The notes beneath the pieces were generated by a model. That model was given only the letters and a program-made list of their open reading frames with translations, was not told the DNA's origin and made no database searches. The position numbers and the translations under genes were made by a program. This document shows positions 1,861 through 17,676 of a stretch of DNA of 64,000 nt, in pieces. The first letter of the stretch is position 1. Every line of letters starts with the position of its first letter. The stretch lies in contig JADHWI010000001.1 of NCBI GenBank assembly GCA_016783565.1, positions 1 to 64,000 of the forward strand, read 5' to 3'. The DNA is from Kiritimatiellia bacterium (GTDB taxonomy: Bacteria > Verrucomicrobiota > Kiritimatiellia > UBA8416 > JADHWI01).

Positions 1861-1899
1861 AACCGCGGTTTCAGGAACACCTCATTGCAGCCGTTCGCC
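1831..1899 (+). other. attC site (cassette 3/4 boundary)
   Basis: R'' ACCGCAC (TACCGCAC vs expected TACCGAAC, 7/8), L'' gcaatggagg vs L' cctcattgc (extra G), inner ttcct..aaaccgcggttt..aggaa, R' GTTCGCC at 1893. Confidence 0.75.
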
Positions 1900-1925
1900 A
1901 TACTGAAGAAAAGGAAAGATTAAAA

Positions 1926-2609
1926 ATGAAACGATTATTCATTGCAGCACTATTTATGACTACTATCGCACTGCAGTCACTATTTGCAGGAGATGGGAAA
2001 AAATCTGAATTACCCAAAGTCTTAATTATTGGAGATTCCATATCCATTGGATATACCCCCCACGTTAAGAAAGCCTTGGAGGGCAAGGCGGTAGTAAAGC
2101 ATCACAGAGGCAATGCAGGACCTACCATACGGGGACTTGCCAACATAGAGAAATGGCTGGGTGATACCAAGTGGGATGTCATCCATTTCAACTGGGGACT
2201 TTGGGACATGTACGGATGGGAGTACTGGAAGCAGGATCGCTCACCCGCGAAGTATAAAGAAAGGCTCGAGAAACTTGTCAGCCGTCTGAAAGACACTGGA
2301 GCCATACTTATTTGGGCCACCACAACGCCCGCTTGTCCCATGCCTGAGATAAGCATGGTAAAGAGATTCAAAGAAGGCAGCGCTGTTGTTTCCCCTGAAA
2401 CGGAAAAGAAGTACCTTGAGGTGGCCAGGGAGGTAATGAAGAAACACAACATCACTATGAATGACTTGCATAAACTGATAAAAGACAAGCGAAAGCTATA
2501 TGCGAAGGCAGACAATGATGTCCACTACAACACGGCAGGCCAAAAGAAACTGGCAGAGCGAGTCGCGATTGCAATACAAGAGAGCTTAAAAGGCGAACAA
2601 ACAAATTGA
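1926..2609 (+). CDS. SGNH/GDSL-type hydrolase, secreted
   Basis: Signal peptide; KVLIIGDSISIGY block I; NDVHYNTAGQKKLAE catalytic DxxH-type block. Confidence 0.75.
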   Translation: MKRLFIAALFMTTIALQSLFAGDGKKSELPKVLIIGDSISIGYTPHVKKALEGKAVVKHHRGNAGPTIRGLANIEKWLGDTKWDVIHFNWGLWDMYGWEYWKQDRSPAKYKERLEKLVSRLKDTGAILIWATTTPACPMPEISMVKRFKEGSAVVSPETEKKYLEVAREVMKKHNITMNDLHKLIKDKRKLYAKADNDVHYNTAGQKKLAERVAIAIQESLKGEQTN

Positions 2610-2660
2610 CCACTACAAATCAAACGCCGTTTGATTTGAGGGTCATTCAAAGCGTTCGAT
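2592..2660 (+). other. attC site (cassette 4/5 boundary)
   Basis: R'' GGCGAAC exactly complementary to cassette start GTTCGCC at 1893; L'' aattgacc vs L' ggtcatt (extra T); inner caaatcaaac/gtttgatttg; R' GTTCGAT at 2654. Confidence 0.85.
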
Positions 2661-2669
2661 GGAGAGAGA

Positions 2670-3893
2670 ATGAAATCTACACTGATCGCTATGGCAACTG
2701 CATTCTTGCTGCCTGCGTACCACGGTCATGCAGGGGATTACTACGCGATTCCGGGCAAGGGAAATGCTGAGAATCCGGGTACAATGTCGCATCCCTGGGG
2801 AACGCTGGAACAAGCTGCACGAGAAGGGAAACTCACCAAGTTGAGGGGTGGCGACCGAGTTCTCCTTGGTTCCGGCTATCACGGCCATGTGCAGTTTCAG
2901 GGAGAGAACAAGACAATGGTCGTCATAGAGCCGATGAAGGGACAGAAGCCAGAACTTGGAAGACTGACCATCACAAAAGGCTCAAACTGGACCGTCAGGA
3001 GGTTGACAATAAGCCCTTCCTGCGGAGACAAGAAATATAAAGGAAGCATTGTGACCATTGCGGAGGGAGGCTCCTCACACACCGTTATTCTTGAAGATTG
3101 CTTTGTCCACACAACAACCAACACCTCAAAATGGGGCCCAGCAGATTGGACGGGAGCAAACTCAGGCATATTCATGGGAAGGCACGGAAAGAACCTTACG
3201 TTGAGAAACAACTACGTTCTTAACACCCGGTTTGGCATATCCTTGTGCGCTTACGATTCCCTTTGTGAGGGAAATGTTGTCTCCGATTTCTCAGGTGACG
3301 GCATCCGAATAACTCGAGACGGTATTACTGTGCAGCTGAATGTCATCAAGAATGTATACGTTGGCGAGGAAGATGGAGACAAGAACCATGATGACGCCAT
3401 TCAGTGCTTCCTATTCAACAAAGGAACAGGCACGGTTCGAAACGTTGATGTTCGACACAACCTGATCATGAACCAGGAGGAGGAAGGCCGTCCTTATGCT
3501 ACCATTTTCCAGGCCATAGGATTCTTCGATGGTCCGCTGGTGAACTTCCGTGTTGAGGGAAACGTAATCGGCGTTAAGCACTGGCACGGAGTGAGCCTGT
3601 ATGATGCCCAGAACTGCACCATAATCAACAATGTAGTCTTCAATCCTTGGGGCGGTCGGTTTACCCCATGGGTCATGCTGGGCTCAAAGCAGAATAAGGC
3701 GCGCGGCAACACGGTCACCGGAAACTACGCCCACAAGTTCAACTTCAAGGCGGATCCGTCAGTCAAGAGCTCGGACAACAAAGAGGTAACAGACAAGGTG
3801 TTCCTGGCGGCGAGGAGAAGATTGATTGATACAATCAACAAGAGATTCGAAGATCGACATCCTGTCGCCGGGCGAAGAAGACTCAAGAGGTAA
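2670..3893 (+). CDS. Right-handed parallel beta-helix protein (pectate lyase-like fold), secreted
   Basis: Repeated N-x-(I/V)-x-x-N-type beta-helix repeats (NNYVLNTRFGISL, CEGNVVSDFSGDGIRI, VEGNVIG, IINNVVFNP). Confidence 0.65.
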   Translation: MKSTLIAMATAFLLPAYHGHAGDYYAIPGKGNAENPGTMSHPWGTLEQAAREGKLTKLRGGDRVLLGSGYHGHVQFQGENKTMVVIEPMKGQKPELGRLTITKGSNWTVRRLTISPSCGDKKYKGSIVTIAEGGSSHTVILEDCFVHTTTNTSKWGPADWTGANSGIFMGRHGKNLTLRNNYVLNTRFGISLCAYDSLCEGNVVSDFSGDGIRITRDGITVQLNVIKNVYVGEEDGDKNHDDAIQCFLFNKGTGTVRNVDVRHNLIMNQEEEGRPYATIFQAIGFFDGPLVNFRVEGNVIGVKHWHGVSLYDAQNCTIINNVVFNPWGGRFTPWVMLGSKQNKARGNTVTGNYAHKFNFKADPSVKSSDNKEVTDKVFLAARRRLIDTINKRFEDRHPVAGRRRLKR

Positions 3894-4159
3894 ACCTATC
3901 AAGAATCAGACTCATCGATCGGGACAATTTACCTTATTGTCGCGTAGCCGCGCCAAAAGGTGATTGTAAACATTCGGATCAATAGATTTGATGTTCCGCA
4001 ATAGTTCTGGTATGAATATAGTTATGAATAAAAGCATAACGAGACTTGGTAAAATAGGAGACAAAAGGAACGATGACTTCGTACCTGGTTCGCCAAGTTC
4101 TCGCTTGGACCTTGTATGGCCTCTGACGGAGGAAGTCGCATCTTTAAGTCAACATCACG

Positions 4160-4618
4160 ATGTTAAACGAAGACTACAAAGAAATGTTACAGTCGTTAAT
4201 CGGCGAGAACGTTAAATTTATTCTCGTCGGTGCATACGCTCTCGCTGCTCATGGCTACCCCCGTGCAACCATGGATATTGATATATGGGTAATGCCAGCT
4301 CCTGACAATGCTGATGCTGTTTTAAAAGCATTAAATAAATTTGGGGCACCCCTTCACGGGTTGACATCCGATGATCTTCTAAAGCCGGATACCATTTTCC
4401 AGATTGGTGTGGCCCCGAGAAGAATAGATATTATCACTGGAGTTTCGGGACTGGATTTTGAGTCTGCATTTGCAAACTCAATACGAACAGAAATTGAAGG
4501 CTTAATGATTAACATCCCCTCACTAGATGACCTTATCTGCAACAAGAAAGCATCAGGAAGATCAAAAGATATAGCCGATGCTGAAGCATTAGAGAGCCTT
4601 AAATTATCCGATCTCTGA
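4160..4618 (+). CDS. Nucleotidyltransferase-fold protein
   Basis: VKFILVGAYALAAHGYPRATMDIDIWV: GG/A-Yx..DxD nucleotidyltransferase signature. Confidence 0.65.
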   Translation: MLNEDYKEMLQSLIGENVKFILVGAYALAAHGYPRATMDIDIWVMPAPDNADAVLKALNKFGAPLHGLTSDDLLKPDTIFQIGVAPRRIDIITGVSGLDFESAFANSIRTEIEGLMINIPSLDDLICNKKASGRSKDIADAEALESLKLSDL

Positions 4619-4619
4619 T

Positions 4620-4680
4620 ATGAACCTGACTGTTCATAGCCGCGCTTTCATCGCGCCTACTTCAGCAGGTTATGTTTGCC
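4620..4680 (+). other. Degenerate attC-like site
   Basis: L'' aacctgactg vs L' cagcaggtt (extra A), inner gcgcg/cgcgc, R' GTTTGCC (4674-4680) confirmed by complementary R'' CGGCAAAAC at 5019; own R'' not clear. Confidence 0.55.
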
Positions 4681-4745
4681 GCAACTATGTGTGCTATTGT
4701 GTTCACCTAGTAGACATAGGCACACACTACAACAGAAGCTTAACC

Positions 4746-4916
4746 ATGTCTCAGACCGTAACACTCAAACTTGACGATGCCGTCTATCAGAAGTTCAAAG
4801 GGTTGGCCGCTCACGTCAACCGGCCCCTCTCAAATTTTATTCAGACGGCTGCACTTCGCTTCGTAGAGGAGCACGAGGTCGTTGACGAATACGAAATGGC
4901 TGAAATCAAAGCTTAA
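4746..4916 (+). CDS. Ribbon-helix-helix (CopG-like) antitoxin-type protein, apparently orphan
   Basis: MSQTVTLKLDDAVYQKFKGLAAHVNRPLSNFIQTA; no toxin ORF adjacent. Confidence 0.6.
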   Translation: MSQTVTLKLDDAVYQKFKGLAAHVNRPLSNFIQTAALRFVEEHEVVDEYEMAEIKA

Positions 4917-5018
4917 AAAATAGGGACACACCCTTTATGCTATCAATTAAGCATAAATGACCCGTAACAGGTGGCGTATTTAATCATTCTGCACCAAGGG
5001 ACTTCTGGACCATGATTT

Positions 5019-5101
5019 CGGCAAAACAAGATTCTCGATGCGATTTCTGAACAACGAAGATTTTCAGCGTTATCCAGAAACGCATCAGAATGACGTTGGA
5101 C
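5019..5101 (+). other. attC site
   Basis: R'' CGGCAAAAC, long arms gattctcgatgcgatttctg / cagaaacgcatcagaatgac (two extra unpaired bases), R' GTTGGAC (5095-5101) matches GTTRRRY. Confidence 0.8.
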
Positions 5102-5131
5102 ATGTAGATGAATATCGGAAGGAAGTGAGAA

Positions 5132-6013
5132 ATGATTGATCAGCTCAGCAGAAGATTGTTTATTAAGAGCTCAGTATTTGCTGCAGGTGCGGCGGCGCTA
5201 GGGATAGTGGAGCTTACCTATGCCACGCAAGGAGATTCGTGTCGCTGGGCACTACTTTCAGATACGCATATTCCGGCTGATAAAACCGAAAAGTACCGCG
5301 GTTACTCAATGATTGATAACATGGATAATGTTGTCCCCGGTGTTGCCGTGTCAAAACCTGATGGTATTGGAATTACCGGCGATATTGCGCGTCTGTCAGG
5401 CAAATCGGAGGACTATCTGGTTGTAAAAGAGTATGTCGACAAACTCACTCTGGTGGCGCCCGTCTTTATGGCTCTTGGAAATCATGACCACTTTAAGAAC
5501 TTTAACGCGGCTTTTCCCTCAACATCCGGAGAAAAAGCACAAGTCAAGGGTAAGCACGTCACTGTAGTTAATTCAGGGCCTGTGCGTTTGATCTTTCTGG
5601 ATTCACTTCAAATCACAAACTATGTCGCCGGGCGACTGGGACAGGCACAGCGCAATTGGCTGCAGAAATATTTGACTAAATCGGATAAAAAACCAACGAT
5701 TCTTCTCTTGCATCATTCCTTTGGCGGAGGCGACGGTGATTTACAGGATGACTTAAGGTTCTTCAAAGTAATACAACCGCATCGCAATGTGAAAGCGGTT
5801 ATTTATGGACACTCGCATTGCTACCGCTTTTCCAAGCAAGATGATCTGGATTTGATCAACCTTCCGTCTACCGCTTACGTCTTCAACAATAAGTTTCCCG
5901 TTGGCTGGGTGGATGCTGAATTTTCAGCTACAGGAGCATCATTGAAACTCAGGGCAATCGCGGGCAATAAAGCAGACGAAGGTAAAGTCACAAAGATTAA
6001 GTGGCGAAGCTGA
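5132..6013 (+). CDS. Calcineurin-like metallophosphoesterase with Tat-like signal
   Basis: SRRLFIKSSVFAAGAAALG signal; LLSDTHIP, GDIARL, GNHDHF, HHSFGGG, YGHSHCY motifs. Confidence 0.85.
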   Translation: MIDQLSRRLFIKSSVFAAGAAALGIVELTYATQGDSCRWALLSDTHIPADKTEKYRGYSMIDNMDNVVPGVAVSKPDGIGITGDIARLSGKSEDYLVVKEYVDKLTLVAPVFMALGNHDHFKNFNAAFPSTSGEKAQVKGKHVTVVNSGPVRLIFLDSLQITNYVAGRLGQAQRNWLQKYLTKSDKKPTILLLHHSFGGGDGDLQDDLRFFKVIQPHRNVKAVIYGHSHCYRFSKQDDLDLINLPSTAYVFNNKFPVGWVDAEFSATGASLKLRAIAGNKADEGKVTKIKWRS

Positions 6014-6048
6014 TTGCATTAGAATACAAAAAAGCTACTACAAAAGGA

Positions 6049-6101
6049 GCCAAAACACTGCAGAGCTACGTCGCTAAACGCGCCGAGTCTGAGTGTGAAC
6101 A
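6049..6101 (+). other. Candidate degenerate attC-like site
   Basis: acactGcag / ctgagtgt arms with extra base; R'' (GCCAAAAC) and R' (GTGAACA) deviate from consensus. Confidence 0.35.
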
Positions 6102-6114
6102 TTCAACACAGAAA

Positions 6115-6465
6115 ATGAAGAAGAACATAGCAGCAATACTGATTACGTTCACCGTGGGGCTGATCTTCGCCTTGACCATGGCCGTATCAAACATGCGAGT
6201 CCCTCATCGCGGCTTTCCTTTTCTATTGGATCTTCTTCACTTCAGCTTGCCACGGTGGGCGAGGATGCCCGCATACTTCGCTGGGCCAACCGTTGGCATT
6301 ATCCTTCAAATCACTAGTCTGGTGTTTGTCATCCGCAAACGTTTCTCGGGACTCTCGAGGCGCCAGCGCATAATATGTTGCATTGTTTGGTCACTGCTCC
6401 TTGTGATATTCTTGCTGGTGTGTGGATACTTTACGATGGCTTCGGTCGTGTCGTGGTTTGGATAG
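6115..6465 (+). CDS. Hypothetical small membrane protein (about 3 TM segments)
   Basis: MKKNIAAILITFTVGLIFALTMA..; hydrophobic segments; ATG 6115 preferred over the long N-terminal extension from 6001. Confidence 0.5.
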   Translation: MKKNIAAILITFTVGLIFALTMAVSNMRVPHRGFPFLLDLLHFSLPRWARMPAYFAGPTVGIILQITSLVFVIRKRFSGLSRRQRIICCIVWSLLLVIFLLVCGYFTMASVVSWFG

Positions 6466-6474
6466 AAAGGACTA

Positions 6475-6660
6475 TGTGTCGAATCGGGTGCCTGTGACTG
6501 ACTGAGAAATCCTCAGCCAGCCACAGGTCCCACACCACCAATCATGCGGGTCCGCACTTGACGGTTCCGATCAGGCGATCAGGGTTGCCCCCCCCGCTCG
6601 GTTACCCTCACGAAGTTGGCTTCACGTAGTCGTTCACGTTTTCACGTGCGGTCCTCCTAC
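6475..6660 (-). other. Structured non-coding insert, possible group II intron remnant
   Basis: On the minus strand cctgtggctggctgag / ctcagtcagtcacagg forms a 16-bp stem with two G-U wobbles, plus tgcgg/ccgca hairpin; no ORF; lies within the cassette array. Confidence 0.3.
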
Positions 6661-6714
6661 AGGAAACTTGCACCCCGTTTACAACACGCCCATGCTGGGC
6701 GTACACAAAGCATT

Positions 6715-6759
6715 GCACAGCGACGTGGTAAACCGCGCGCGTGAACGCAGCCGTTGTGC
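6715..6759 (+). other. Cassette boundary / attC-like site
   Basis: R' GTTGTGC at 6753 with GCACAGC at 6715 able to pair; boundary confirmed by exact complement GGGCACAAC at 7423. Confidence 0.5.
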
Positions 6760-6843
6760 CCGAAAGAATAGGCTAGACGCATGCGCCAACCATTGCATAC
6801 TATATATGCACACACACAGGAAACTATATGCATGGAGAAACCT

Positions 6844-7038
6844 ATGAGAACAACCCTTGATCTCCCCGCTCCCCTCATTGCTGAGGCGATGAAGGCCACG
6901 CACCAGCGCACGAAGACTGCCGTCATCGTGACTGCACTCGAGGATCTCGTGCGCAAGAGTCGTATCCATGGTATCACGAAGTTCAAAGGGAAAGTTGACC
7001 TCGATATAGACCTGAATACGCTACGGAAGCGCTCATGA
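6844..7038 (+). CDS. vapB: VapB-type antitoxin
   Basis: MRTTLDLPAPLIAEAMKATHQRTKTAVIVTALEDL; upstream of PIN toxin with ATGA overlap. Confidence 0.8.
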   Translation: MRTTLDLPAPLIAEAMKATHQRTKTAVIVTALEDLVRKSRIHGITKFKGKVDLDIDLNTLRKRS

Positions 7039-7412
7039 GCGTGCTGATCGATAGCTCCATATGGGTTGAGTACTTCCGTGGTTCAGCGAACGACGGAAGA
7101 CTCGACTTCTTGATTGAAGAGAATCTTATTGTAGTGAACGACCTCATTCTTGCCGAATTGATTCCGGCGTTGCACCTGAGGCGACAACGCAAATTGATTG
7201 GCCTTATGCGAGAGATCGTCTGTCCGCCTTTGGAAGTGGACTGGGATGATCTTATCCAAATGCAGATCGCTTGTCTAAAGAATGGGATCAACAAGGTTGG
7301 CATCCCTGACCTCATGATCGCACAACATGCGATTCAGAATCATCTGGAACTGTACACACGGGCCAAGCACTTCAAACTCATAGCACGACATGTCCCGTTG
7401 GCCCTGCATTGA
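7035..7412 (+). CDS. vapC: VapC PIN-domain toxin
   Basis: MSVLIDSSIWVEYFRG PIN motif. Confidence 0.9.
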   Translation: MSVLIDSSIWVEYFRGSANDGRLDFLIEENLIVVNDLILAELIPALHLRRQRKLIGLMREIVCPPLEVDWDDLIQMQIACLKNGINKVGIPDLMIAQHAIQNHLELYTRAKHFKLIARHVPLALH

Positions 7413-7424
7413 GACCACGAGAGG

Positions 7425-7493
7425 GCACAACAAAGTTGCTAGTAAGGCCGCGCGATGCGAGCCCTCACAGGTCCGGTGAGCACTACGTTAGGT
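7425..7493 (+). other. attC site
   Basis: R'' GCACAAC (GGGCACAAC complementary to cassette start GTTGTGCCC at 6753), L'' agttgct vs L' agcact (extra T), R' GTTAGGT. Confidence 0.85.
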
Positions 7494-7500
7494 AAACAAC

Positions 7501-8439
7501 ATGGAGACAAAGATGATATGTAGGAATGTTGCGGTCTGTGTCGCATGCGCTTTACTTCTATCCGGCTTTACCGGGTGTACAGCGAACCGCGCCGGATGGG
7601 AATTGAAAAAGATCGGTGAGATCGGCGATTTCAACTGGCCTGAAGCGATTCGCGTGGACCACGAAGCCAAGCGCGTATTCGTCGCAAATATCGAAACCTC
7701 GACAAAGGGGGGCTGGGAAGCCGACGGGAAAGGCTTCATCTCTGTGCTGTATCCTGACGGTTCGGTGATCGAGCGAAAATGGCGGAGCAGCAATGCGGAC
7801 TTTACATTCAATGCACCCAAGGGCATGACGATACTTAACGAGCATCTGTATATCGCGGATATCTCGAGATTATTGGTCTGCCCGTTAGATGCAGAGAAAC
7901 CTATCCGCGTGATAGATATTCCCGGCGCGCAATGGCTAAACGATATCTCGACAGATGGGAATGACTTATATGTGTCCGATACAAAATCTGCCAAGGCTTA
8001 CAGAGTCGATCTCATCACCGGCACACATAATGAAATTAAAGCTCCTGAGTGGATCAACGGTATTACATCGCACAAGGGCCATCTTTACTGTGTCAGCATT
8101 AAGCTGCACGAGCTTTATGAACTCGACCCTTCCGGGGAGCGAGATCCCATTCCTTTTGGCCTGAAAGAGTACTTTGTTGGTCCGGACGGAATTGAAGTAC
8201 TAAAGGACGATTCGTTTATCATCTCAGACGTGAAGGGTGATAGACTGCTTCATGTCACAGCTGACAGAAAGTACGTCAGTACTCTAGCGGAGGTGCCCTG
8301 TCCTGCTGATATCGCAATTGACCCCAAGCGCAACCTACTCTATGCACCATCATTGTTCGAGAACAAGGTGACAATATTCAAACTAACGAGTCTACCTAAT
8401 ACAAAACCTAACAAGCCGGATGCAAATAGCCGCGACTGA
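7501..8439 (+). CDS. SMP-30/NHL-like beta-propeller lipoprotein
   Basis: Lipobox LLLSGFTGCTA; repeated propeller motifs (GMTILNEHLYIADI, NDISTDGNDLYVSD, DGIEVLKDDSFIISD). Confidence 0.65.
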   Translation: METKMICRNVAVCVACALLLSGFTGCTANRAGWELKKIGEIGDFNWPEAIRVDHEAKRVFVANIETSTKGGWEADGKGFISVLYPDGSVIERKWRSSNADFTFNAPKGMTILNEHLYIADISRLLVCPLDAEKPIRVIDIPGAQWLNDISTDGNDLYVSDTKSAKAYRVDLITGTHNEIKAPEWINGITSHKGHLYCVSIKLHELYELDPSGERDPIPFGLKEYFVGPDGIEVLKDDSFIISDVKGDRLLHVTADRKYVSTLAEVPCPADIAIDPKRNLLYAPSLFENKVTIFKLTSLPNTKPNKPDANSRD

Positions 8440-8454
8440 TCCGCGGCGTTCGCT
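8406..8454 (+). other. attC site (short)
   Basis: R'' ACCTAAC exactly complementary to cassette start GTTAGGT at 7487; gccggat/atccgcggc arms; R' GTTCGCT at 8448. Confidence 0.8.
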
Positions 8455-8469
8455 ATAATAGGAGATATT

Positions 8470-9924
8470 ATGATAAGAGTTTTACCTGACCGACGCAAAT
8501 TTCTCGGGACCATCACCGCTCTTGGAGTCATGGCAGTGGTGCCCCTTGGCCTCACGGCGCCTGAGCCCAAGATGCCGGCCAGACCCAATATTCTGCTTTG
8601 CCTCGCAGACGATTGGGGCTGGCCACATGCTGGAGCATATGGCGACAAGGTCGTCAAAACACCGACATTCGACCGCCTGGCAAAGGAAGGCGTTCTTTTT
8701 GAACATGCCTTTGTTTCCAGTCCTTCGTGTACTCCCTGTCGTAATGCACTCCTCACCGGGCAGCAGTTTTACCGCCTTGACGAAGGGGCAAATCTCTGGA
8801 GCACATTGGATGTGCGGCATCAGAACTTCATGTTCCTCCTGCGGAAGTCGGGGTATCAGATTGGCCACTGGCGCAAAGCATGGGGACCGGGCAATTTCAG
8901 AAAAGGAGGGTACACCGAGCATCCTTGTGGCCCCGACGGCGATTTCAGGTCTTTCATGAAGAAGCGCAACAAGGACAGACCCTTCTGCTTCTGGTTCGGA
9001 ACCAGCGATCCTCATCGTGGCTATGCCAAGGGAAGCGGCGCTAAGAGCGGAATCGATATCGACAAAGTACATGTGCCAAACTTCTACCCGAACACAAGAG
9101 AGGTACGCAGTGACATTGCGGACTACTATTTCGAAGTGCAGCGTTGGGACAGCGATGTTGGCAAGGCTATCAAGCTGCTGGAGGAAGCTGGCGAACTGGA
9201 CAGCACGATCATTGTCATGACCGGTGACCACGGCATGCCGTTCCCCCGCTGCAAAGGCAACCTGTACGACTGGGGGGCACGCGTACCGTTGGCAATCCGG
9301 TGGGGAAACGAAGTCAATGCCAACCGTACTGTAACTGATTTCATTTCATTTACGGATCTTGCCCCAACATTTTTGGATGCCGCTGGTGTTGAGGTGCCAA
9401 GTGAGATGACAGGGCATTCACTGTTTCCCATTCTTCAATCTGAGAACGCAGGACGTGTGGACCGCGAACGCGATTACATGGTCTTCGGCAGGGAACGACA
9501 TACGCTTGCGCAGAAAAAGCCTTCCATGGCCGGTTATCCAGCTCGCGCCATTCGTACGGACAAATGGTTGCTTATTCTGAACCTGGAGCCAGATCGTTGG
9601 CCTGCAGGTGTGCCAGACGGGTCCACCCACAAGATAGGAAAGCACGCCGACTGTGATGATGGGCCGACAAAGTCATTCATCATGCAGATGAAGAATGACT
9701 CCGATAAGAATACGTTCTATGATCTCTGCTTCGCCAAACGAGGAGCAGTCGAGCTGTATGATTGTGAAAAGGATCCCGACCAGACACATAACCTGGCAGA
9801 TGATCCCAAGCACAGTAAAACCATCAAGAAGCTGTGCTCACACCTGGTTGAGTATCTAAAGACAACCGAGGACCCGCGCTTTACAGACAAGCCGGTAAGA
9901 TTTGAGGAGTATCCTTACAGGTAG
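8470..9924 (+). CDS. Arylsulfatase-family enzyme, secreted (Tat-like signal)
   Basis: DRRKFLGT signal; RPNILLCLADDWGWPHAGAYG; formylglycine motif CTPCR (CxPxR); GDHGMP. Confidence 0.9.
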   Translation: MIRVLPDRRKFLGTITALGVMAVVPLGLTAPEPKMPARPNILLCLADDWGWPHAGAYGDKVVKTPTFDRLAKEGVLFEHAFVSSPSCTPCRNALLTGQQFYRLDEGANLWSTLDVRHQNFMFLLRKSGYQIGHWRKAWGPGNFRKGGYTEHPCGPDGDFRSFMKKRNKDRPFCFWFGTSDPHRGYAKGSGAKSGIDIDKVHVPNFYPNTREVRSDIADYYFEVQRWDSDVGKAIKLLEEAGELDSTIIVMTGDHGMPFPRCKGNLYDWGARVPLAIRWGNEVNANRTVTDFISFTDLAPTFLDAAGVEVPSEMTGHSLFPILQSENAGRVDRERDYMVFGRERHTLAQKKPSMAGYPARAIRTDKWLLILNLEPDRWPAGVPDGSTHKIGKHADCDDGPTKSFIMQMKNDSDKNTFYDLCFAKRGAVELYDCEKDPDQTHNLADDPKHSKTIKKLCSHLVEYLKTTEDPRFTDKPVRFEEYPYR

Positions 9925-9947
9925 ATGCTTCAGGAACAGGAAAAAGA

Positions 9948-10010
9948 AGCGAACCAAAGCATTCAAAATATCGGATCTAACGTGCCAAATCCTCAAGCTA
10001 GACGTTAGGC
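9948..10010 (+). other. attC site
   Basis: R'' AGCGAAC exactly complementary to cassette start GTTCGCT at 8448; L'' agcatt vs L' aagct (extra A); R' GTTAGGC. Confidence 0.8.
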
Positions 10011-10564: not shown

Positions 10565-10607
10565 CGCGAACGCAGCTCAGTTTGAGCCTCACGCAGGGAC
10601 GTTCGGA
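10565..10607 (+). other. Candidate short attC-like site at array end
   Basis: CGAACG (10568) / CGTTCG (10600) pair around a short hairpin; R' GTTCGGA; R'' does not match cassette start GTTAGGC. Confidence 0.4.
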
Positions 10608-10725
10608 CACAGCCCCAATGCTCCATGGCGCGGAATGAAAGCTGACGCCTTTGGAGGAGGACATAGAGTGCCATTCGTTGTGCGCTGGCCGGACAAGATT
10701 GCCACAGGCAGTGTCAATGACCAGA
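10600..10725 (+). pseudogene. Arylsulfatase gene fragment
   Basis: GHSPNAPWRGMKADAFGGGHRVPFVVRWPDKIATGSVNDQT matches the interior sulfatase GGHRVPFxVRWP region; both ends missing. Confidence 0.65.
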
Positions 10726-10808
10726 CGATATGCCTTATAATATTTAATTATTCTATTATAGCTGGGTAGAAATGCTTCAAGTGTAAATCTCCGAATGTGA
10801 TCGCGGCC

Positions 10809-12008
10809 TCACTTATCCACGCGAATACGACGGCGAATAAAGGTGGGCACATCAAGGTCTTCACCATTCAGAATGGTGGGTGCCACATCCTTGAATCGGC
10901 CCCGGCCACCCCGATCAAGCGGAAGGCTTGCCTGCTGGCTCTTCTTGCGACCACCGGAAACTGATCGTCCCTGCGGCCGAGCACTTTCCACAGTGCTCTT
11001 TCGTTTTGGCACATTAATCTCTACAGGAGAGTCTTCCACTTGCGGCGCGGTAATGACCGATTTAGTCGCACGCTTCTTCCCCACGACCAAAGATACAGAG
11101 ACACGACCGACCCATGCATCGTCAACCGAGGTACCCACACATACCCGACATTCAGGCTTCACTGCCTTTGAAATCCCGTTGAGCACCTCTCCGACTTCTT
11201 TGAGCGTTACATCCGGCCCCACAACCAGGCTTACTAACACAAGTCTGGCCTGATTTAACTGCTTCCCCCCTTGCAGAGCGGGTCCTTCAAGCAAATCCTT
11301 CAGCACGGCAACAACGCGTTCTTCGCCAGTAGCTTCTGCATAAGCCAGAATACAACTCCCCTCTGTATCGTTACCGATCCGCTTAAGATCAGCAAAATCC
11401 ATGTTGATGCAGCCCGGCCGGGACAGTGTCTGCCACAAGGCGAGCACTGCAGCGGCGAGTTTTTTATTCGCAGCATCGAACAACGCGGGAAGATCATTGG
11501 CATCCACCTCTTCGAACAACGCATCATTGGGCACCGTAATCAGAACATCGCAAACGGCTTCCAGTTCTTCAACGGCACGATTGGCAACCGCCTTACGCGA
11601 TCCCCCTTCGAAAGAAAAAGGCAACGTCGCAAAACAAAGGGTCATAATCCCTGCATCCTGCAATGCTTGCACCGCAGCAACACTTCCCCCGCTTCCAACA
11701 CCTCCACCCAACCCGGTCACAATCAGCACTGCGGCAACATCCTGCGCCGCTTCAAGTAATTCCGTCACGCCAGTATCCATGGCCTGCCGCCCCATGCGGT
11801 CATCACCACCTGCACCAAATCCTTCCGTAAGGGCTTCACCCACCTGAAGACAAATCGGAGCCTTTGATTCAGCAAGCGAACACGTATCGGTATCCACCGC
11901 CAACAACGGCAACTCCTCATCCACAAGTGCCGCCACGGCTCCCATCAATCGTGAACCCGCGCCACCCATTCCCATCACACTGAACCGTTGATCACTCATG
12001 ATCCGCAA
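10809..12008 (-). CDS. ftsZ: Cell division protein FtsZ (divergent)
   Basis: VMGMGGAG.., VTGLGGGVGSGGSV (signature loop), NMDFADLKRI T7 loop, C-terminal DLDVPTFIRRRIR. Confidence 0.9.
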   Translation of the reverse strand: MRIMSDQRFSVMGMGGAGSRLMGAVAALVDEELPLLAVDTDTCSLAESKAPICLQVGEALTEGFGAGGDDRMGRQAMDTGVTELLEAAQDVAAVLIVTGLGGGVGSGGSVAAVQALQDAGIMTLCFATLPFSFEGGSRKAVANRAVEELEAVCDVLITVPNDALFEEVDANDLPALFDAANKKLAAAVLALWQTLSRPGCINMDFADLKRIGNDTEGSCILAYAEATGEERVVAVLKDLLEGPALQGGKQLNQARLVLVSLVVGPDVTLKEVGEVLNGISKAVKPECRVCVGTSVDDAWVGRVSVSLVVGKKRATKSVITAPQVEDSPVEINVPKRKSTVESARPQGRSVSGGRKKSQQASLPLDRGGRGRFKDVAPTILNGEDLDVPTFIRRRIRVDK

Positions 12009-12041
12009 TTACCCCAAATCCATATTGAATAAAAATCAAAT

Positions 12042-13265
12042 CTAACCGCCCACAAGGCTGCTAAGCCATTGTTTGAATAGTGGTTTGCGCCTCTTTTCGC
12101 TGTATACTTTGAATCCGTACTGAACCAACCCACTACAGGTGGCATATTCCGGTCCATCCGTAACCGTGGCCACACCGGTTACACCCCGAGGACGACCGAT
12201 CTCGCAGGGTAATTGAAAAATTTCTTCTGCCAGGCCAAGAACACCCTTGAGATGCGCGCCCCCGCCCGTCAGCACTACCCCGGCCCCGAGATGATGCAAG
12301 GCCTGCTCCTTTACCAACCGATCCCGCACGATGGTCAACAGTTCCTCCATGCGTGCATGAATCACGCTATGCAGTGAACTCAAATTCACCGAACGACCCG
12401 GGAAGCCGACTTCCGGCGCCATGGATACCCGCTGCGATCGATTGACCGTCCCCGTCATCGCACATCCGGACTCTCGCTTAAGCCGTTCCGCCTGGCTCGT
12501 AGAAATATTGAAAGCCATGGCCACATCATTCGTCACATGATCGCCACCGACGCCAACCACACCCGCCGCCGCCGGCACACTCGATGCATAGGCCATATAG
12601 TCCGTAGCTCCACCACCCAGATCGATAACCACAACCCCGCCACGTTTATGCTCGGGTGTCAACACGGACATCCCTGAACAGAGACCGCTGAACACCACAT
12701 CGTCAACACCGACAGAAAGGCTTTGAACCAGACGAATGGAGGTCTCCAACCGATTGCGCACGCAATGCAACACCAGCATATCATGGGAAAGACGGGCACC
12801 CGACATCCCTTCAGGTTTCATCACACGATCCTGATCGTCCAGGGAATAATACTGATCCAGTGAATGCAAAATATCGCGATCCGTGGGGAGATTGACCGCC
12901 TTGGCCACTTCGCGTACCTGCTCCACATCGTCGTCGCCAATGATGCCGTCCTTACTCAAAATGGGAACCGTGCCGCGATTGCTCATGCTGTGGACATGTA
13001 CACCCGAGATCGCCAGAACGACTTCACGAATAGAGACTTTGCCATTCTCTTCAGCCATATCCAATGCCCGTCGCACACAGGCGGATGCATTGTTCATGTC
13101 CACAATCTCGCCCTTACGAATGCCTTTTGAAGGACATTCTCCGGTACCCGTGATCATGATATAGTTGTCTTCACGTGTTTCGCCAACCAGCGCAACAATC
13201 TTCGAAGTACCTATTTCCAAAGCCACTATTGGTGGTGCCGCCATCCCACAAAATCTCCCTACCAT
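12042..13265 (-). CDS. ftsA: Cell division protein FtsA
   Basis: VALEIGTSKIVALVGE.., VVIDLGGGATDYM, VVLTGGGAHLKGV; start may be internal (MAAPPIV). Confidence 0.93.
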   Translation of the reverse strand: MVGRFCGMAAPPIVALEIGTSKIVALVGETREDNYIMITGTGECPSKGIRKGEIVDMNNASACVRRALDMAEENGKVSIREVVLAISGVHVHSMSNRGTVPILSKDGIIGDDDVEQVREVAKAVNLPTDRDILHSLDQYYSLDDQDRVMKPEGMSGARLSHDMLVLHCVRNRLETSIRLVQSLSVGVDDVVFSGLCSGMSVLTPEHKRGGVVVIDLGGGATDYMAYASSVPAAAGVVGVGGDHVTNDVAMAFNISTSQAERLKRESGCAMTGTVNRSQRVSMAPEVGFPGRSVNLSSLHSVIHARMEELLTIVRDRLVKEQALHHLGAGVVLTGGGAHLKGVLGLAEEIFQLPCEIGRPRGVTGVATVTDGPEYATCSGLVQYGFKVYSEKRRKPLFKQWLSSLVGG

Positions 13266-13268
13266 ACG

Positions 13269-14165
13269 CTAGCGCGTATAGATTCTATCATGATACGTTC
13301 CGTCAAAACGGGTCTCATTTGCCCCTTCAGGTTTCTGCATCGCCTGCACCCATCGTCCAAGCTTGCGCAACAACTCCATGCGAGATTCTGGAGTCCTCGC
13401 ACCCATGCCACTCCAGGTTAGATGAATCTGCCGCATCACACCTTCGTAATCGGCTCGCAACACCAGGTGTTCTCGCTTTCCAATATCTACCTCCTTGACA
13501 TCCAGACCAAGTTGCGGATTGCGACACACGTCCACCAACTGAACCGCTGCCACCGACATGCCGCTGATTCGCGATCCCGGCTGCAATGCATCTCCCTTAT
13601 ACCCCACCAATGCCGGAAGGTGTCGCACCGTGCGCGCCGAAGAGAACACCGCACCATCTTTATCCGTGACAAGCGACTGTCGCCACCCGACCACAATGCG
13701 TGCAATCGGCACACGTGGTACGGTTTCCACAATCAACACATCCGGCAAAGACCGTGTAATCTTGATTGCGCGATAGGCGTGTGCACGCGCCAGAAACTTC
13801 CGCTGCAACTCAGCAGGATCAAATGAGAACAGATTGCTGCCTTCCTTGATCCCCTGCTCCCCCCTGATAAAATCATGCGCCGCCGTGCCTTCATCACGAA
13901 TCTGAAGACGCGTGATCGTAAAACGGTCATTCCCCGAAAACAACAGGTAGCCAATGCCCTTAAACCCAAACCAAATGCCCACCACCACCGCTACCACAAG
14001 CAGCGGAACCAGTATCAGCACCGCAATTTGTTTGCCATGACGCGAATCACCACGCTTGGATTTGCGTTGCCGCACGTTCAGCGTCTTTGCATGGCCACGT
14101 CGGCGCTTCACCGTACCCAGCTTCTTTCCCGAAATTATCTCGTCATCAAACCACATTGGTCTCAA
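13269..14165 (-). CDS. ftsQ: Cell division protein FtsQ (POTRA/FtsQ type)
   Basis: Single N-terminal TM, POTRA-like FTITRLQI..; between ddl and ftsA. Confidence 0.85.
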   Translation of the reverse strand: MRPMWFDDEIISGKKLGTVKRRRGHAKTLNVRQRKSKRGDSRHGKQIAVLILVPLLVVAVVVGIWFGFKGIGYLLFSGNDRFTITRLQIRDEGTAAHDFIRGEQGIKEGSNLFSFDPAELQRKFLARAHAYRAIKITRSLPDVLIVETVPRVPIARIVVGWRQSLVTDKDGAVFSSARTVRHLPALVGYKGDALQPGSRISGMSVAAVQLVDVCRNPQLGLDVKEVDIGKREHLVLRADYEGVMRQIHLTWSGMGARTPESRMELLRKLGRWVQAMQKPEGANETRFDGTYHDRIYTR

Positions 14166-14183
14166 CCTATCACATCGTCCTGA

Positions 14184-15080
14184 TCACCCATCATATGCAG
14201 CCGTCTGCATAATACGATGACACAACTCATGAAACTCTATACCGGCCGCCCCGGCCGCTTTTGGCAATAAACTATTTGGCGTAAATCCCGGAATACTATT
14301 CAACTCCAACACAAACATCCGGCCATCAGGATGCAAACGAAAATCCACACGCCCAAAGCCCCGACAAGCCAAAGCAGCAAACACATCTCTCGCAACCGAT
14401 TGCAACGCAACTACTTGAGGCTCATCCAGAGGTGCAGGCACTAAATACTCGCTGCCTCCCGCATACTTTGCCGAATAGTCATACCACGCATCCGGTGCTC
14501 GAATCTCAACCGGGGGCAACGCTTGCCCATCAACAATACCCACCGTCAATTCACGCCCCTCGATATACTGCTCCACAAGGGCAATCCCACCATATTGCAG
14601 CGTATCAGCCAGACAGTCGTCCCACGCGGCCTCTTCAACCACACGATGAAGGCCAATACTGGATCCCTCTGTCACCGGCTTGAGAACCACAGGCAACGGG
14701 AGCGTTCGAGTATCTCCTGCCCGCAGAATCTCATAAGGTGCGGTCAGGATGCCTGACTGAACAAAGGCTTTCTTGCTGAGCACTTTGTCCATAGACCGAC
14801 AACTGGAATCAGCCCCGGATCCCGTATAAGGAATATGACGTTCATCCAGAATCGCCTGAACGCCCCCATCTTCACCAAATGCACCATGCAACGCAATAAA
14901 TACCGCCTCAGCACCGTCCAACGTGGGGACGGTCCTCTCATCCAGCACCACCGGTAACACCTCATAGCCGGCTTGTTCCAGCCCCTGCGAAACAGCCCGA
15001 CCAGACTGGAGAGAAATCTCGCGCTCCGAAGATGGCCCTCCCATCAATACCGCAACTTTCTCAAACCGCTTCACCATCAC
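14184..15080 (-). CDS. ddl: D-alanine--D-alanine ligase
   Basis: VLMGGPSSEREISLQSGRAV; ATP-grasp motifs; RVDFRLHPDGRMFVLELNSIPGFTPNSLLPKAA. Confidence 0.95.
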   Translation of the reverse strand: MMVKRFEKVAVLMGGPSSEREISLQSGRAVSQGLEQAGYEVLPVVLDERTVPTLDGAEAVFIALHGAFGEDGGVQAILDERHIPYTGSGADSSCRSMDKVLSKKAFVQSGILTAPYEILRAGDTRTLPLPVVLKPVTEGSSIGLHRVVEEAAWDDCLADTLQYGGIALVEQYIEGRELTVGIVDGQALPPVEIRAPDAWYDYSAKYAGGSEYLVPAPLDEPQVVALQSVARDVFAALACRGFGRVDFRLHPDGRMFVLELNSIPGFTPNSLLPKAAGAAGIEFHELCHRIMQTAAYDG

Positions 15081-17437
15081 CTCATCAAACCAAAAAATCG
15101 TATCTCAGTCTCCAGCTCCACCCCATACCGCATGGCCACAGCCATCTGCATCTGCTGCATCAGGGCCAACACATCCGACGCGCAAGCACTCTTATCAACG
15201 CTCAGAAAGTTCGCTTGGGAAGGCGCTGTCCCAGCCCCTCCCAATTGCACACCTTTATACCCGGCACCCTCCAGAAGCCGACCTGCAAAATCCCCCGGGG
15301 GATTCTTGAAAACAGAACCTGCCGATCGCTGCGATGCCATCCATACACGACGTTCAGACACCTCCTTGCGCCGCGCTTGAATCACCTTCCGGTCACCCGC
15401 CGGAAGCTGTAAAGCGACTTCAACACACAGCGCATCCCGCAACGCGTCGCACGTTCTGTATGCGAGTCCCATCCGCTCTCGAGAGACTATATGCTCACGA
15501 CCGTCACTTTTCAAACAACGAATCCATAAAAGGTGATCTCCAATCTCCGAACCGTGTGCACCGGCGTTCATACGACAGGCCCCACCTACGGTGCCCGGAA
15601 TCCCCTCCAGATTCTCCAAGCCTGCCAACCCGTTCTCCTCGGCCCAGTCCAGCAGACGCGACAGAGACACCCCCGCTCCAATACGTATCACCTCTCCATC
15701 TTGCACAATATGGCGAAACGCCTCACCCCGCAACCGAACAACCACCCCCGATACCCCAAGATCACTGGCCAACACATTGAATCCGCCACCCAGCAGTCTC
15801 AACGGCAAACCGTTCTCTTCTGTCCAGCGCAACAAAACGGCCAGATCATAAATGCTTCCCACGTCCACAAGGCAATCTGCCTCGCCCCCCACACCAAAAC
15901 TGGTGATACGGCGCATCGGAAAACCCTGACGCACCTCAGAGTCCCTCAATGCCTCAATCGGCAAAGCCACAACGGTCTCACCATGCCCTTCACGTTGAAA
16001 TCCAACCTGCTCCGCTTCCAGGGCTTGCTGCATATCAAACGCCAACCGTTCCACATCCCCAGCTCCCGTCACCAGCAACATATCGCCCGGCTGCAGCGTC
16101 CGACGGTAATACTCTCCGGCCTCCTCCACAGAATCGGCCAGCATCAGGCGTTTCGGGCCGTGCTGCGGCGCCCCGTAAAAACGGGCATAAAGATCCGCCG
16201 TCGTCCCGCCCGGCAACGGCGATTCAGAGGCTGCATACACAGGCACCAGAATAACTTCATCCACACCATCAAAAGCAGAAGGGAAATCCGCCCCCAAGGC
16301 TCGCGTACGGGTGTAGCGGTGCGGCTGATAAACCATGCGTAAACGCTGCGACTTTTGCAAACCAGCCATCTTCACCAGTGCGACAATCTCAGAGGGATGA
16401 TGCGCATAGTCGGACACCACGGTCACACCGTCTCGACACGCCACCCTTTCGAAACGACGGCGAGGCAAACTTAATGCATTCAACCCTTCGCGAATATGCT
16501 CCGGACTCACTCCCAATTCCAGAGCCACGCCTATTGCCGCAACCGCGTTCATCACATTGTGAACACCCGCAACCGGAATCGCAAAAACACCCAGATCACG
16601 CCCCTCACATAACAGCGTAAAGGTCGACACACGGGTCTCGCAGTTTATACCACTCACCCGCAGGCTGACCCCCTCTGATTCACCGTAAGAACGCGCACCC
16701 GGCACCGAGGCGCACAAAGCAGCGGCACGCGGATCATCCCCCCCGTATATCACTCGCCTTTGCGACTGAGAAATGAATCCAGAGAAACAGGACTCGAAAT
16801 CTGCCACGTTTTCGAAATGCTCCATGTGATCAAATTCGATATTGGTCACAATGGCAATATCCGGCGAATACAGCGCGACCGTTCCGTCGCTTTCGTCGGC
16901 TTCCACCACAAGCACCTCTGCTGCGTCCGAGCCCGCCACGCCACCCAGCGACTCAATCTCACCACCAATACACCAGGCCGTTTTCACATCGCAGGCATTC
17001 AGGAGCTGTGCCACGAACGTACTCGTAGTCGTCTTACCATGTGTGCCGCTGACCGCCACAGACGTGACACCCTCCAGCAAACGCGGTAGCACTTCGCCGC
17101 GCCGAAAAACCGGCAATGCACATTGACGAGCAGCACAAATCTCATCGTGTTGTTCATTGACCGCTGCGGTTCGAACCACCCAATCCACGTCCTGCGTGAC
17201 ATGACTTGCATCATGCCCCTCAATCACCTCTATCCCGCGACTGGACAACCAGCGTCCGATTCGCGTTTCCGCAGTGTGATCACATCCGCTGACACGGCAA
17301 CCACGCTGTTTAAGCAGAACAGCCAGACCAGCCATCCCAATACCACAGATCCCTACCAGGTGCACATGCCCCCCGGTAACCAGGCAGCTTTGGAGCTCAT
17401 CATCAACTGTCTTCATCATTGCATCGCGTTTAAGCAT
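15077..17437 (-). CDS. murC-murB: Fused UDP-N-acetylmuramate--L-alanine ligase / UDP-N-acetylenolpyruvoylglucosamine reductase (MurC-MurB)
   Basis: MurC: HLVGICGIGMAGLA, VSGTHGKTTTSTFVA; MurB: LLGGGFNVLASDLGVSGVVV, IPGTVGGACRMNAGAHG, SAGSVFKNPPGDFAGRLLE in one frame; internal ATG 17437 preferred. Confidence 0.92.
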   Translation of the reverse strand: MLKRDAMMKTVDDELQSCLVTGGHVHLVGICGIGMAGLAVLLKQRGCRVSGCDHTAETRIGRWLSSRGIEVIEGHDASHVTQDVDWVVRTAAVNEQHDEICAARQCALPVFRRGEVLPRLLEGVTSVAVSGTHGKTTTSTFVAQLLNACDVKTAWCIGGEIESLGGVAGSDAAEVLVVEADESDGTVALYSPDIAIVTNIEFDHMEHFENVADFESCFSGFISQSQRRVIYGGDDPRAAALCASVPGARSYGESEGVSLRVSGINCETRVSTFTLLCEGRDLGVFAIPVAGVHNVMNAVAAIGVALELGVSPEHIREGLNALSLPRRRFERVACRDGVTVVSDYAHHPSEIVALVKMAGLQKSQRLRMVYQPHRYTRTRALGADFPSAFDGVDEVILVPVYAASESPLPGGTTADLYARFYGAPQHGPKRLMLADSVEEAGEYYRRTLQPGDMLLVTGAGDVERLAFDMQQALEAEQVGFQREGHGETVVALPIEALRDSEVRQGFPMRRITSFGVGGEADCLVDVGSIYDLAVLLRWTEENGLPLRLLGGGFNVLASDLGVSGVVVRLRGEAFRHIVQDGEVIRIGAGVSLSRLLDWAEENGLAGLENLEGIPGTVGGACRMNAGAHGSEIGDHLLWIRCLKSDGREHIVSRERMGLAYRTCDALRDALCVEVALQLPAGDRKVIQARRKEVSERRVWMASQRSAGSVFKNPPGDFAGRLLEGAGYKGVQLGGAGTAPSQANFLSVDKSACASDVLALMQQMQMAVAMRYGVELETEIRFFGLMR

Positions 17438-17481
17438 TTTGCCTTCCGGGTATTCGGGGTGCCACACAGTCCACTCCCATT

Positions 17482-17676
17482 TCAGGATCGCCGTGCACGA
17501 AGCGCCTGCGCATGACGATCCGGGCAATACCCCAGTTCATCCATGACAGCCTCGATCTTCCGGCGCAACTCAGGGCTTACATAGCCACGTTCCGTCACGA
17601 CCCGCGATACTGTGTTCTGCCCCACCCCAGCGCGTTCTGCAATGTCTTTCTGCGTTATATTCTTTTTCTTCATCAT
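17482..17676 (-). CDS. Solo LacI-type helix-turn-helix domain protein
   Basis: ITQKDIAERAGVGQNTVSRVVTERGYVSPELRRKIEAVMDELGYCPDRHAQALRARRS then stop; no ligand-binding domain. Confidence 0.7.
   Translation of the reverse strand: MMKKKNITQKDIAERAGVGQNTVSRVVTERGYVSPELRRKIEAVMDELGYCPDRHAQALRARRS

Follow-up and report, generated by a model that had tools for sequence, protein, structure and literature searches.

The window, a stretch of 64,000 nucleotides, covers the beginning of contig C56 in a draft genome (G000; 2.42 Mb, 85% complete) whose nearest relatives are Kiritimatiellia, among them Kiritimatiellia bacterium Arabian11_MAG_70 (G001; JASLPY010000002). An array of attC sites occupies its first 10.8 kb on the + strand, ends at ftsZ and holds genes for an SGNH hydrolase, a beta-helix protein, an NHL-type protein and a sulfatase. 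The contig begins inside this array, and the integrase side would lie beyond the contig end. The four open reading frames claimed in a preliminary description of this DNA (1926-2609, 2670-3893, 7501-8439 and 8470-9924) were all found at those positions. The features are listed below; scores are those of a profile trained on the array of G019, a relative that belongs to the same order and has 35 attC sites and a complete IntI.

662-739, + strand: attC site, boundary G at 733 (profile score 29.3; fold z -2.4)
1333-1412, + strand: attC site, R'' against its own cassette start 6/7 (profile score 31.5)
1831-1899, + strand: attC site directly upstream of the SGNH cassette (score 22.2; covariance model E 5e-5; fold z -2.8)
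1894-2654, + strand: SGNH-hydrolase cassette, ORF 1926-2609 (start GTTCGCC, own R'' GGCGAAC, 7/7)
2592-2660, + strand: attC site of the SGNH cassette (score 28.0; fold z -5.0)
2655-3972, + strand: beta-helix cassette, ORF 2670-3893 (start GTTCGAT, R'' ATCGATC, 6/7 by hand comparison; Pfam Beta_helix 1.7e-10)
3914-3980, + strand: attC hairpin of the beta-helix cassette, mutated cut site ATTCGGA (fold z -3.7)
4005-4618, + strand: small ORF and nucleotidyltransferase (DUF6036) module (Pfam; 74% nucleotide identity to G028:C86, the IntI-bearing contig of a relative)
4688-4916, + strand: CopG-like antitoxin gene, common to the G019 integron array (83% nucleotide identity to L064:8507-8732)
5132-6013, + strand: secreted metallophosphoesterase ORF within the array (Pfam Metallophos 9.6e-14; no attC boundary detected)
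6679-6759, + strand: attC site (profile, covariance model), last 60 nt 89-92% identical to two G019 attC sites
6754-7487, + strand: VapBC-type toxin-antitoxin cassette, 6844-7412 (start GTTGTGC, own R'' GCACAAC, 7/7; VapC)
7425-7493, + strand: weak attC site ahead of the NHL cassette (score 7.1; R'' 7/7 with its own cassette start; does not fold)
7488-8448, + strand: NHL-repeat secreted protein cassette, ORF 7501-8439 (start GTTAGGT, own R'' ACCTAAC, 7/7)
8406-8454, + strand: short attC site separating NHL and sulfatase (core of 29 bp with 93% identity to a G019 attC site also preceding a sulfatase)
8449-10004, + strand: sulfatase cassette of 1,556 bp, ORF 8470-9924 (start GTTCGCT, own R'' AGCGAAC, 7/7; PF00884)
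9948-10010, + strand: attC site of the sulfatase cassette with intact R boxes and an eroded hairpin (score 24.2; fold z -0.2)
10590-10764, + strand: second sulfatase remnant, a C-terminal piece at the array end (49% amino acid identity to a piece of sulfatase from the G019 array)
10809-17527, - strand: dcw cell-division and cell-wall genes bordering the array (synteny with G001:C222; FtsA at 12042-13265)

The SGNH ORF matched Pfam Lipase_GDSL_2 (SGNH/GDSL; 6.5e-9) and has a homologue with 55% identity inside another cassette of the same genome (C1:83902-84585). For the protein labelled SMP-30/NHL in the preliminary description, the NHL repeats were recovered (Pfam NHL 1.4e-6) and the SMP-30 assignment was not reproduced. 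No clear attC site was found between 3.98 and 6.68 kb, and several cassettes at 2.66-6.75 kb have lost clear attC boundaries. Within this region, the minus strand of 6479-6570 is 74-82% identical to stretches near intI/attC in G002 (L069:4308-4394 and L050:5702-5756); on inspection by eye it looks like the 3' terminus of an attC-targeting group IIC intron, although Rfam gave no match for it.

attC sites and cassette ends

A strict textbook scan of the window (GTTRRRY/RYYYAAC) returned one convincing site only, at 675-739, and used as a test for an array it would have wrongly dismissed this one; an Rfam search gave no match. The attC profile was trained on the G019 array alone, using 15 seed sites, several of them with R' boxes such as GTTCGCT, a variant of this clade that deviates from GTTRRRY yet is common in G019. 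With this profile seven window sites scored at least 22, all on the + strand, whereas no site scored at least 20 in the 106 kb control (both strands of the remaining window) and three did so in 216 kb of base-shuffled array. Profile, control and covariance model together place attC sites with R''/R' boxes at the 3' ends of cassettes. Two stretches of the window also match the G019 array itself, namely the core of the pre-sulfatase site (93%) and the site at 6705-6768 (89-92%).

In an integron the six terminal bases of an attC site (TTRRRY) are part of the next cassette, and the start of a cassette should complement its own R''. Such end-matching was perfect (7/7) in 22 of 34 adjacent pairs in G019, compared with 2.8% of non-adjacent pairs. 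The six testable cassettes of the window matched their own R'' at 6, 6, 7, 7, 7 and 7 of 7 positions, the perfect matches being those of the sulfatase, NHL, SGNH and VapBC cassettes, and the true pairing was the best of 720 permutations. Across the attC/IntI loci of the order, end-matching identified 186 cassettes (134 at 7/7) compared with two in 743 kb of control sequence; MutL and ribosomal S2 'cassettes' (L227, L046) were false calls of the scan. The profile control and the permutation rank put the cassette structure claimed earlier beyond chance, and the sulfatase unit, then placed at 8448-10004, was right to one base. The sequence data thus strongly support the view that the window genes are, or were, integron cassettes.

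The sulfatase and its relatives

The sulfatase matched PF00884 (3e-36) plus SGSH_C. Its CTPCR signature, noted as a formylglycine motif in the preliminary description, is conserved in close relatives, as are the catalytic blocks DDWGW, HWRKAWG and TGDHG. Tat export, also proposed in that description, is predicted from a visible RRKFLG twin-arginine motif. With PF00884, the C-x-P-x-R formylglycine motif and the metal-site residues, the protein belongs by sequence to the S1 sulfatases, and FGE-domain proteins are encoded in the same genome. The nearest solved members of the family are S1_8A (PDB 9bb9/9bes) and N-sulphoglucosamine sulphohydrolase (4mhx), which the window enzyme resembles in PF00884, the CxPxR formylglycine site and SGSH_C. 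Unlike them it is cassette-borne, and the match is distant and of partial length (E 1.6e-39), with no substrate assignable from it.

The closest relative of this sulfatase (82% amino acid identity) lies directly 3' of an attC site (6978-7034) in an Opitutales MAG (L084), at the end of an array that also has sialidase-like and esterase-like cassettes. A tree placed the two proteins as sisters (94/73, moderate support), ahead of a homologue from G001, a relative of the same family as G000, and their divergence (dN 0.12, dS 0.86) gave a dN/dS of approximately 0.14. For AtpD, the Opitutales contig and G000 share only 59% identity, and for dcw proteins G000 and G001 share 45-64%. Set against these values, the 82% identity of the sulfatases argues that the gene has moved between lineages.

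The G001 homologue (78%) lies in a gene cluster 7 kb from the dcw operon, on the other side of it and with different neighbours, and the same ordinary cluster contains an SGNH gene with 42% identity to that of the window. We found no convincing attC site beside the sulfatase and SGNH genes of this cluster, which indicates that the sulfatase gene also exists outside integrons. We considered whether the cluster refutes the cassette reading and dismissed it on the grounds that its side and neighbours differ and that the closest relative of the sulfatase is itself in a cassette. The same sulfatase locus fixed in integron-less relatives, which the preliminary description had named as a refutation, was therefore not what G001 presented.

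Glycan-enzyme cassettes in related genomes

Besides that of the window, matched-end sulfatase cassettes occur in four other genomes of the order, with ends at 7/7 in G019, G001:C20 and G028:C86 and at 6/7 in G015:C53. Two are beside intI: the G028:C86 cassette is near the gene, and the G015:C53 sulfatase is the first unit next to it. G019, which has an intact IntI, carries sulfatase, beta-helix and GH39 cassettes and has CopG and attC pieces in common with the window, while the G001:C20 array (L229 1209-12541) brings together beta-helix, FGE-domain (possible sulfatase-maturation), alpha-L-fucosidase and sulfatase cassettes. Validated cassettes of the order also encode GH10, GH39, GH63/MGH1-like, GHL15, BNR, fucosidase and sialidase-like proteins. 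Covariance-model searches located further arrays in G000 itself, on C31, C18 and the end of C1, with BNR, SGNH and GH32-C-terminal cargo; the end of C1 holds a second SGNH cassette of this genome (ends 7/7), behind an attC-bounded ORF without a family assignment and a GH32 C-terminal domain. By annotation, glycan-degradation enzymes are a recurrent integron cargo in this Kiritimatiellia order.

Several other features of these arrays were observed. On the minus strand of G000:C1, L199 8639-9655 is an attC-bounded gene for a secreted 338-residue protein that looks GH43/GH32-like by eye and had no Pfam or NCBIfam match. In G028:C86 (L048), intI and the cassettes share one strand and the sulfatase cassette lies 3' of intI, a layout that differs from the divergent intI usual in integrons. 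A validated cassette of G014:C220 (L231:4086-5504) encodes a fusion of a caspase-like and a C-type lectin domain. C-terminal sulfatase pieces without the active-site half are present in the arrays of three genomes (window 10590-10764, L064:17906-18670, L078:5216-6277 and L214:2924-3694) and may be either decayed cassettes or genes captured as pieces. The G000 sulfatases at C1:42030-44740 have only a decayed attC-like stretch between them and were left out of the count of cassettes.

Decay of the array and origin of the cassettes

The bottom-strand attC fold is strong at the two sites flanking the SGNH cassette, at 662-739 and at the beta-helix site, although the last has the mutated cut site. 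In contrast, the site at 7425 and the sulfatase's own site at 9948 folded no better than shuffled sequences, so the array end beside ftsZ looks like relict cassettes. A search of the G000 draft for IntI gave no TIGR02249 match over the family cut-off, and no intI with attI was found beside the array, whereas relatives have an intact IntI. An integrase-like gene on C31 was rejected as IntI, being far below the cut-off and beside an IS91-like transposase. On the same contig (L201, 5962-7519) an IS91-like transposase adjoins a tyrosine-recombinase fragment, at the end opposite to the attC array with which C31 opens. On C56, C31, C18 and C1 alike the array extends to a contig end, which leaves room for an unassembled integrase.

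With at least two attC sites and no intI nearby, contig C56 resembles a CALIN (the IntegronFinder term for a cluster of attC sites lacking an integrase), as do its eroded sites and the lack of a detected IntI in the genome, but the contig is cut inside the array, which blocks a firm call here. Draft genomes are known to inflate CALIN counts (PMC9024848). The relatives' IntI, the single-gene attC-delimited cassettes, mostly in one orientation, and the many toxin-antitoxin units recall sedentary chromosomal integrons (the Vibrio superintegron, Xanthomonas, Planctomycetes), from which the present arrays differ in their repeated sulfatase, GH, sialidase-like and SGNH cargo and in their many ORFs of more than 250 residues. 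The enzyme types overlap with those of polysaccharide utilisation loci; unlike these, the window genes are separate recombination units and presumably not one co-transcribed locus.

The best explanation, to which we assign a probability of about 90%, is that these are relict glycan-gene cassettes captured by IntI, in an order where glycan enzymes are recurrent cargo. An IntI-type recombinase would once have captured single-gene circles by recombination at attC, among them those of the secreted S1-family sulfatase, the SGNH hydrolase, the NHL-type protein and the beta-helix protein, and each cassette still bears the matching R boxes of the circle it came from. Erosion of the distal attC sites has since left the units largely fixed, while the sulfatase remained under protein-level constraint. 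The cassette structure, the pieces common to IntI-bearing arrays and the cassette-located nearest relative in another lineage can be read from the sequences directly; the capturing integrase would since have been lost or have escaped assembly, and an advantage in using polysaccharides may have followed.

That the window genes are instead ordinary chromosomal genes beside the dcw operon, their attC-like motifs being chance palindromes, is highly improbable. The 78% sulfatase and 42% SGNH homologues near the G001 dcw operon, with no convincing attC beside them, would suit that account, but their neighbours and operon side differ, and it is contradicted by the permutation, control and cassette-internal R-box tests and by the attC homologues in the G019 array, which bears an IntI. 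We also consider it rather unlikely that the living organism has a complete, active integron whose intI and proximal array are missing from the draft alone. The incompleteness of the genome, the arrays at contig ends, the intact IntI of relatives and the fresh-looking attC sites on C31 and at SGNH all speak for this, whereas no IntI fragment exceeded the cut-off, no intI was recognised on the examined part of C18 left of its array, and the distal attC sites are eroded.

The main rival to ongoing reshuffling is passive sampling from sulfatase-rich genomes, in which capture is unselective, sulfatase and glycosidase cassettes only reflect genomes rich in such genes and integrons have no polysaccharide-specific role. 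We regard it as a serious contender at somewhat below even odds. A single genome of the order can encode more than 50 sulfatases, many cassettes are toxin-antitoxin units or have no known function, and the enrichment of sulfatases in arrays is modest (5 observed compared with 1.65 expected, P=0.026), with four of the five from G019. Against it, eight of the 33 largest validated cassette ORFs were glycosidase-, sulfatase- or sialidase-like compared with none of 32 large ORFs elsewhere in the window (P=0.003), a control that is small and housekeeping-rich, and carbohydrate genes are depleted about six-fold in cassettes generally (PMC7370490). The claim that the integron reshuffles polysaccharide functions is upheld as regards recurrent glycan cargo (G001, G015, G019, G028 and the Opitutales MAG); active reshuffling is plausible but unproven, with no intI found and eroded attC sites.

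The known cargo of integrons consists mainly of toxin-antitoxin, defence, resistance and no-known-function genes. In a survey of 13,397 integron-associated genes (median 402 nt), no COG category was more depleted than carbohydrate metabolism (odds ratio 0.158; PMC7370490), and cassettes from the ocean were enriched in defence (PMC10949469). We found no description of sulfatase cassettes in the openly accessible literature searched, and passages of papers naming both 'sulfatase' and 'integron' placed no sulfatase in a cassette. What sets the present integrons apart is repeated glycan-type cargo where surveys rank carbohydrate genes among the rarest.

The patchy spread of sulfated-glycan degradation is usually put down to unspecified horizontal transfer. 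We tentatively suggest that the integrons of Kiritimatiellia and, through exchange, those of other sulfatase-rich lineages might form a common library of genes for polysaccharide degradation, with desulfation and glycosidase functions gained and reshuffled gene by gene across classes. If integrons of polysaccharide degraders repeatedly carry full-length sulfatases and glycosidases, they would provide a concrete gene-by-gene route for spreading sulfated-glycan degradation.
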